11,116 bases of DNA from Verrucomicrobiota bacterium (GTDB lineage Bacteria > Verrucomicrobiota > Verrucomicrobiia > Chthoniobacterales > UBA10450): the NCBI GenBank assembly GCA_003218735.1, contig QHOJ01000167.1, positions 1 through 11,116 on the forward strand. The letters are read 5' to 3'. The notes under the pieces were generated by a model. The model saw only the letters and a program-made list of their open reading frames with translations. It was not told where the DNA came from and did no database searches. Below, in pieces: positions 3,551-6,531 of this stretch. Position numbers and translations under genes: made by a program. How positions within the stretch are numbered: the first letter of the stretch is position 1; each line of letters begins with the position of its first letter.

Positions 3551-3604
3551 TGTAGCCGCCTCGCTGTGCGACGTGCACGCGCGCCTCACAGAGGCGCGGC
3601 TACA
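3551..3604. repeat. 54-bp palindromic element overlapping the GNAT stop codon
   Basis: The ends form a perfect 9-bp inverted repeat, TGTAGCCGC (3551-3559) and GCGGCTACA (3596-3604). Inside are two smaller hairpins with 3-nt loops: TCGC-TGT-GCGA (about 3561-3571) and GCGCCTC-ACA-GAGGCGC (3581-3597, overlapping the outer arm). A single strand could fold as a two-hairpin or three-way-junction structure. The TAG at 3600-3602 inside the right arm is the stop codon of the GNAT gene. The plan resembles REP/MITE-type repeats. Copy number is unknown from this window, but a related element lies at 3932-3982. Confidence 0.7.
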
Positions 3605-4163
3605 GAAGCGAACGAAACATGACGTAAACATCGACATATCCCTTTTGCGGATGCCGGAAAGCACCTGGCAACGTGCCGAGGACTTCGAAACCGAGCTGTT
3701 TCCACAGGCGAATGGCTCCTTCGTTCGTCGAGACAACAAAGTTGAATTGCATCGCGCGAAAGCCAAGCCGGCGCGCCTCGCTTAGGCAATGCTCACCCAT
3801 CTCTCGACCGATTCCGAGGCCGCGCGCGTTTGGCGCAACCATGAACGCCGCATTCGCAACGTGAGAGCCGAGTGCCGGTTGATTCGGTCTCAAAATGTAA
3901 GTGCCTACGATATCTCGTTCGTACGCCTCCACTGTAGGGGACGGCGCTGCCGTCCCAGGTAAGCCAACGGCTTCCCCTACAGACTGCCGATCCTGCTCGG
4001 CAACGTACGTGTAGGTGTCCGGGCGAAACCAATAGGCGAGCGCCTCCTCGCGAGACATTTTAGGGTCGAACGCGTACGTGTCACCCGGGGTAATTACAGC
4101 ATGAAAAATATTCCAGATCGCATCGTGATCCGCTTCTGTTGCTTGACGAATTTCCAGCATCAT
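3600..4163 (-). CDS. GNAT-family N-acetyltransferase, 187 aa, interrupted by an in-frame palindrome
   Basis: This is predicted to transfer acetyl from acetyl-CoA to an amine; the substrate is not identifiable. It opens with LEIRQATEADHDAIWNIF, typical of the GNAT first strand and helix. Motif A, FMVAPNARGLGIG (107-119), carries the acetyl-CoA pyrophosphate loop, and motif B gives NEGAIRLWKQLGFEVLG (147-163). The start is set by GAGGT (4169-4173) 5 nt before the ATG at 4161-4163; a second ATG follows directly. An open frame extends upstream to 4202 but lacks this signal. Residues about 59-83 interrupt what should be the continuous strand pair VAEQD / DIVGTYIL. They are encoded around the palindrome at 3932-3982, read in frame as SVGEAVGLPGTAAPSPTV. 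The last codons run into a second palindrome that supplies the TAG stop. Function may persist if the insert lies in a surface loop. Confidence 0.88.
   Translation of the reverse strand: MMLEIRQATEADHDAIWNIFHAVITPGDTYAFDPKMSREEALAYWFRPDTYTYVAEQDRQSVGEAVGLPGTAAPSPTVEAYERDIVGTYILRPNQPALGSHVANAAFMVAPNARGLGIGREMGEHCLSEARRLGFRAMQFNFVVSTNEGAIRLWKQLGFEVLGTLPGAFRHPQKGYVDVYVMFRSLL
3932..3982. repeat. 51-bp palindromic element inserted in frame in the GNAT gene
   Basis: The ends are a perfect 10-bp inverted repeat, CTGTAGGGGA (3932-3941) and TCCCCTACAG (3973-3982). Two inner hairpins have 3-nt loops: GGGACGGC-GCT-GCCGTCCC (3938-3956) and AAGCC-AAC-GGCTT (3961-3973). At 51 bp it keeps the host frame and has no stop in the reading frame used. 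It shares end sequence and plan with the element at 3551-3604, although the inner sequences differ. No clear target-site duplication is visible. Confidence 0.75.
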
Positions 4164-4309
4164 TTGCCACCTCGAATACAATGTCGGGACCTTGAGCGAC
4201 ATTTAATCAAGGCGACAAAATCCGCGGCTTGTCACGCGAATCAATGACGACAAACCGCCGCGCGATCAACTAGCGCTCCGGATGGTTATAACTCGTCGCC
4301 GGCTTCAGG

Positions 4310-6456: not shown

Positions 6457-6531
6457 GTCGAAGCGTTGAAAAGTTAAAGCGTTATAGTGCGTGTAAACCG
6501 CTTCATTTCTTCAACGCTTCAACTCTTCGAC
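6457..6531. repeat. Inverted-repeat spacer between recR and lipA
   Basis: GAAGCGTTGAA (6460-6470) is repeated inverted as TTCAACGCTTC (6510-6520), and an outer pair GTCGAAG / CTTCGAC (6457-6463 / 6525-6531) frames it. Both arms are built from a GTTGAA / GAAGCG theme, which makes alternative pairings possible. It starts 2 nt after the recR stop. There is no T run, so it is not a standard intrinsic terminator; it may stabilise the recR 3' end or be a dispersed repeat. The TATAAC box at 6481-6486 lies in the loop. Confidence 0.6.

Follow-up and report, generated by a model that had tools for sequence, protein, structure and literature searches.

A probable GTAG-type REP dimer read in frame in a GNAT acetyltransferase gene of a Verrucomicrobiota bacterium, in a loop whose content varies among close relatives

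Results and discussion

A palindrome with GTAG ends lies within a GNAT gene

The window, by which we mean the whole stretch of 11,116 nt analysed here, comes from a draft Verrucomicrobiota genome of 1.49 Mb (322 contigs, 80% complete). On its minus strand, at 3600..4202, lies an open reading frame of 200 residues that is recognised by Pfam as a GNAT acetyltransferase (Acetyltransf_1, E = 7e-14) and for which 7886 of 8000 scored candidates were homologues at E ≤ 1e-20. Within this gene, at 3932-3982, is a 51-bp palindrome, CTGTAGGGGACGGCGCTGCCGTCCC-A-GGTAAGCCAACGGCTTCCCCTACAG, and its description in an earlier sequence-only reading was correct in its coordinates, in its perfect 10-bp inverted ends (CTGTAGGGGA) and in its two inner hairpins with 3-nt loops. 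The two hairpins differ: the type B half-unit (3933..3956, plus strand) reads TGTAG followed by GGGACGGC-GCT-GCCGTCCC, the last G of the tail doubling as the first base of the stem, and the type A half-unit (3958..3981, minus strand) reads TGTAG followed by GGGAAGCC-GTT-GGCTTACC, with one mismatch in its stem. A further palindromic pair with TGTAG ends, of the TGTAGCCGC subtype, was identified by its inverted repeat, a pattern match and its sequence at 3551..3604, where it overlaps the end of the GNAT gene such that the stop codon (3600-3602) is the TAG of the pair. We also note that the GNAT proteins of several relatives end (MFRSLL) where the TAG of this pair gives the stop.

The layout of the 51-bp element is that of a GTAG-tagged REP dimer, a BIME-like palindrome. 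GTAG and CGTC REPs have been described, the GTAG type with stems of 5-13 bp and loops of 2-20 nt (Table 1 of PMC3733652). In the window element the stems are 8 bp and the loops 3 nt, the GTAG tetranucleotide stands at one end of each unit, and the two units are arranged head-to-head around a 1-nt spacer with TGTAG at both outer ends. When the 51-nt segment was folded as RNA, the z score was -1.87 and 10 of 200 shuffles folded equally well; because the fold only moderately surpasses shuffled sequence, it is weak evidence taken alone, and repetition is the stronger evidence. A half-unit pattern, searched on both strands with up to two mismatches such that single palindromic units are counted twice, had 12 matches in the source genome, of which the window element accounts for two, and none when reversed as a control, and in three relatives it had 16, 31 and 22 matches against 1, 1 and 0 for the control, as expected of a dispersed multi-copy family. 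The type B half itself has one exact and one three-mismatch additional copy in the source genome (contigs C207 and C130, respectively), so that the further genomic copies proposed as a check on the initial description do exist. A looser pattern for whole pairs found 15 places in the source genome, five of them of the GGGG subtype, against 11 for its control, a background so high that this count proves little and is not taken as proof. At the Rfam gathering score there was no match to the window element, nor to a second palindrome, pal2, described below, in the five sequences searched (the window, L029, L165, L185 and L300), and the window gave only a tRNA.

Read on the minus strand as part of the GNAT protein, the element encodes VGEAVGLPGTAAPSPT. 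As had been claimed, the frame runs without a stop between VAEQD and DIVGTYIL, and the Pfam domain is recognised in the resulting protein. The number of codons added had been put at 17-18; alignment with orthologues that lack the segment instead defines an insert of 24 codons (72 nt, 3912..3983, residues 74-97), about 21 nt of which are flank outside the palindrome. In an AlphaFold2 model built from 39 sequences (mean pLDDT 81.2), the insert is placed between strands 64-71 and 96-106 as a turn of low confidence, and residues 74-94 have pLDDT values below 50; the REP-encoded segment is probably a floppy loop.

The draft state of the assembly, with its many contigs, raises the question of whether the insert belongs to a pseudogene or is an assembly artefact. 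We regard this as highly improbable: the frame is open, a cluster of 99%-identical proteins (P0001) has 20 member sequences, and similar inserts are present in other genomes and in protein records.

The content of the GNAT slot varies among relatives

To describe the position of the insert across relatives, which we call the slot, we read the best 30 loci, the window included, from 83 family genomes, among which 55 had a GNAT match at E ≤ 1e-15. The slot was empty at 19 of these loci and held a REP pair at eight, pal2 at two and a short insert of another kind at one (L031). Counted from VA onwards, nine residues precede GTYIL in the empty loci (VAEQDRQVV and similar; L032-L050), whereas 29-33 residues cover the same span in the REP-filled ones (L021-L028), and in L029 and L030 the slot holds AACTTGACYGCTTAAAGCRGTCAAGTT, which is pal2. 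In a second set of 80 GNAT loci, some on the same contigs as the first, the proteins from other phyla carry no such insert; across the 110 loci, then, distant taxa do not share the segment, a finding that would have spoken against insertion had it been otherwise. Among the best 120 of the 7886 GNAT proteins, a list that leans to close relatives, nine have an empty slot, 110 have a REP-like segment as judged from residues, and one, P0006, has an unrelated and longer filler.

Several of these differences separate very similar proteins. With the slot left aside, the window protein and P0006 are 96.8% identical, and yet the filler of P0006 is unrelated (about 43 extra residues were seen after VAGQDR); P0023, P0055 and P0076, at 92-93% identity to the window GNAT, have an empty slot; and L024, with a REP pair, and L029, with pal2, have hosts that are 92.3% identical. 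The order of the halves varies as well. Type B comes first in L027 (degenerate) and L028, both read at the DNA level, and in P0025 as judged by residues, and a third type of half seems to come first in P0091, P0100 and P0105, again from residues. P0005 and P0025 have the flank residues VEAHER in common with the halves swapped, in hosts that are 78% identical.

A single old insertion, passed on by vertical descent and with its palindrome maintained for a protein or RNA function of the loop, would account for the many filled GNATs in which the insert has the same 24-codon length and near-identical residues (SVGEAVGFPGTATPSPT), with varying flanks. On a tree of the host sequences (102 rows, 156 columns, 6 of 99 inner branches strong; L047, which was too short, and near-duplicates were left out, and P0087, P0097 and P0118 were labelled AB by hand), the filled and empty states are also clustered, needing 17 changes by parsimony against a mean of 30.2 when shuffled, with none of 500 shuffles as low, indicating that much of the slot pattern is inherited. 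Only three of the 17 changes are forced by the best-supported branches. A single clade of REP-filled rows was, however, rejected in a quick tree of 53 of the 102 rows (21 filled against 32; AU p = 1.8e-84), from which L099, L101, L117, L076, L048 and most protein rows were left out. The occurrence of both half orders, of close relatives that are empty or hold an unrelated filler, and of GNATs from other phyla without the segment likewise stands against one insertion, which we therefore consider unlikely. These data support repeated gain, loss or exchange in the GNAT slot, some of which could be mimicked by transfer of whole genes.

We considered whether REP pairs may have replaced an earlier pal2 in the GNAT gene, as E-L stands at the left flank in 20 of 61 REP-filled rows, in both pal2 rows and in none of the 37 empty rows; these rows are related to one another, and no right arm of pal2 was seen. 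Some GNAT flanks also echo each other at the level of the protein sequences.

REP pairs occur in frame in other genes

The source genome and the three relatives together contain 51 REP clusters, four in GNAT genes and 47 elsewhere, and at least 16 of the 51 are in frame in a recognised protein, by Pfam or, for the GNATs and L154, by homology. This is a lower bound in that the ORFs of 21 of the 47 non-GNAT clusters were given to Pfam; the other 26 comprise L154 and clusters that lack a spanning ORF, lie near a start or have a low-scoring ORF, codon-usage scores having served solely to pick candidate ORFs. L131, L137 and L168, where the Pfam domain is only downstream of the element, and L135, with only a short N-terminal lead, were left uncounted. 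The 12 non-GNAT clusters that are in frame in recognised proteins are found in an AMP-binding ligase (L145), M48 peptidases (L151 and L169), uracil-DNA glycosylases (L153 and L162), RecO (L165, and L154 by homology), RmlD (L160), a 2-oxoacid dehydrogenase acyltransferase (L161), a TRCF/Mfd-type helicase (L163), an FAD oxidoreductase (L164) and the tail of an Hsp20 (L167). The REPs and BIMEs of enterobacteria are chiefly extragenic, and in this they differ from the family described here.

Two of these genes were followed across relatives. Of 30 M48 peptidase loci, 21 were readable and 9 were not; a REP is present at 7 of the 21, as a dimer in one case and in degenerate form in two, and absent from the other 14. 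For RecO, 3 of 30 loci are filled (L225, L226 and L227), 24 have no REP (two of them with a few other extra residues) and three were unreadable. L225 and L226 agree in their flanks (AAATC and TCGGCGTTTGCG) and in the spacer AC, and their halves are swapped. Simple inversion of the whole dimer was rejected as the source of this difference, as the 2-nt spacer has the same orientation (AC) in both loci. At the RecO insert, a stretch of about 16 nt that is present in the host sequence of empty relatives seems to be missing, such that the insertion would not have been clean; no clean target-site duplication, a feature of MITEs, was seen there, and host sequence seems to have been replaced.

A second palindrome, pal2, occupies some of the same loops

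The second palindrome, pal2, is a 29-bp sequence, RAACTTGACNGSTTWAASCNGTCAAGTTY, defined from 63 distinct sites. Its pairing is mostly fixed by the search pattern, and the one free pair (N...N) still pairs, as C-G, T-A or G-C, at 87% of sites. With two mismatches allowed, pal2 was found in 45 of the 83 family genomes, with up to 31 sites per genome and none for the reversed control, and the same search did not detect it in the source genome of the window. Across the phylum, a search of 240 evenly sampled genomes with one mismatch allowed found pal2 in one, a member of the family. The end of pal2 is AACTTGAC, without a GTAG or CGTC tail.

Most of the pal2 sites that were sampled lie within coding sequence. 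We sampled 40 of the 42 sites listed for three genomes (G002, G003 and G004), for which 30 ORFs were given to Pfam (three had no match), four sites had no spanning ORF and six weak ORFs were not submitted; accordingly 27 of the 40 sites are in frame in a Pfam-matched ORF and 13 are without such an ORF. Sixteen of the 27 are inside the matched domain, five between two domains and six beside a domain. The genes, identified from Pfam and our reading of it, include those for SelA, QueA, PdxA, CtaA, PheT, ValS, ArgJ, AroB, glycerate kinase and MutY, and further genomes have pal2 in DnaE, TrpA, TrmB, TilS, SelA, MutY and Mfd. One of the frames of pal2 is open in both orientations, one is open in one orientation and the third contains a TGA; at the sites where the TGA frame is used (L319, L334 and L339), CTCGAC replaces CTTGAC and the stop is removed, variants that fit selection for an open frame, with three sites being few.

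In the TrpA loop that follows LDLPPEED, 22 of 30 loci could be read (eight could not), and these have pal2 in eight cases, a REP pair in one and neither in 13; the single REP pair, in L300, is of the TGTAGCCGC subtype and lies in frame where other genera have pal2. Two or three species share the placement of pal2 in each of SelA, QueA, CtaA, MutY and Mfd, and for MutY and Mfd, whose carriers are of one genus, it is possible that the placement is due to inheritance. PdxA has pal2 at a matching place in L330 and L350, and the frame in which it is read differs between the two, which favours separate events.

Origin and mobilisation of the element

We take the window element to be a head-to-head dimer of GTAG REPs, non-autonomous, that entered a turn of the GNAT protein and is read in frame, an interpretation to which we would give a probability of about 0.85. 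The element is repeated, its frame is open, orthologues without it exist and the content of the slot varies between close relatives; among relatives, REP dimers occur in the GNAT slot and in RecO in either half order, and pal2 occupies GNAT and TrpA slots elsewhere. As to mechanism, such REPs would be moved in trans by RAYT-type Y1 transposases, and copies that land in genes would survive only if the frame stays open and the added residues are tolerated in a loop. The REP pair is closed in just one of its three reading frames, that with the TAG, a property that would have helped survival in coding DNA. Later, similar hairpins may have exchanged halves by conversion or through template switching; alternatively, the slot may have been invaded again. 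No function of the encoded peptide is needed for this explanation.

Y1 matches were found in 33 of 35 genomes of the genus. The source genome has two weak ones, in a frame of 1372 residues and in a frame of 84 residues with a TGA. When Y1 loci were scanned with a hairpin finder, GTAG hairpins were present at 13 of 29, none of them of the GGGGA(A/C)G subtype to which the window element belongs. The involvement of a RAYT for this subtype is plausible.

Relation to known palindromic repeats

The initial comparison of the window element was with the palindromic elements of Rickettsia (RPEs), and in one respect it holds: RPEs are palindromic repeats that insert in frame in unrelated genes (PMC10969869, with PMC3733652), as do the repeats described here in GNAT and other genes. 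GTAG REPs are nevertheless the better comparison, given the head-to-head layout with the GTAG tails facing outward. An RPE-type family in this unrelated lineage, with its own mobiliser, would explain the in-frame insertion, and pal2, with its tail-less ends and its sampled sites mostly in frame in recognised ORFs, is closer to that description. The tail of RPE-4 and RPE-6 is CGTC (PMC3733652), whereas the window element ends in GTAG and has the layout of a REP dimer; moreover, the RPEs first reported are about 150 bp long and from another phylum, and the window element is 51 nt. For the window element we thus find an RPE-type origin doubtful, if less so than a single old insertion.

Nor is the presence of such elements within genes new to this type of lineage, as the comparison with Rickettsia had implied. 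Intragenic REPs occur in several species, and the number of intragenic GTAG REPs is highest in the verrucomicrobium Opitutus terrae (PMC3733652). Its GTAG-17 pairs are head-to-head dimers with 1-2 bp spacers (PMC3733652), and the window element resembles the O. terrae dimers in its outer GTAG tails, its short stem-loops, its two different halves, its spacer and its location inside an ORF. REP ends can also supply TAG stops (PMC3733652), as at 3600-3602. With the enterobacterial REPs and BIMEs that are named together with RAYTs in the same source (PMC3733652), it has in common paired inverted hairpins and GTAG ends. The differences from the O. terrae REPs are the lineage and the tracing of one gene slot across species, with either half order and unrelated palindromes in it. 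One related case is the recB of two Xanthomonas species, a single pair in which different REPs lie at about the same site (PMC3733652). Our literature searches, whose coverage excluded most subscription papers, returned no paper that deals with intragenic palindromes of this lineage or with slots of this kind. The window element is a further member of the known intragenic GTAG REPs, and the new part is the slots reused across species together with pal2.

More generally, we lean, by a small degree, towards the view that certain loops of housekeeping proteins in this family act as palindrome slots, which GTAG REPs and pal2 repeatedly enter, replace and re-form, such that mobile hairpins continue to rewrite the loops; pal2, which among the sampled genomes was confined to this family, would be an undescribed RPE-like family located mainly inside coding DNA. 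The GNAT loop provides a natural series of states of one protein segment, in which some hosts have no filler, some a REP pair with its halves in one order or the other, and some an unrelated palindrome or different filler, the hosts being up to 97% identical. With such a series it can be put to the test by what route REP-like palindromes move and are altered within a site, and whether, beyond Rickettsia, palindromes read in frame continually supply proteins with new segments.

Other repeats were seen in passing. The source genome contains further families of TGTAG-ended pairs (e.g., TGTAGCGGCG...), with longer spacers, on contigs C18, C93, C95, C164, C221, C244 and C261. In the window itself, an imperfect 30-nt inverted repeat (6457-6523; 77%, arms 7 nt apart) lies between lipA-like and recR-like genes and is possibly a terminator or another repeat.
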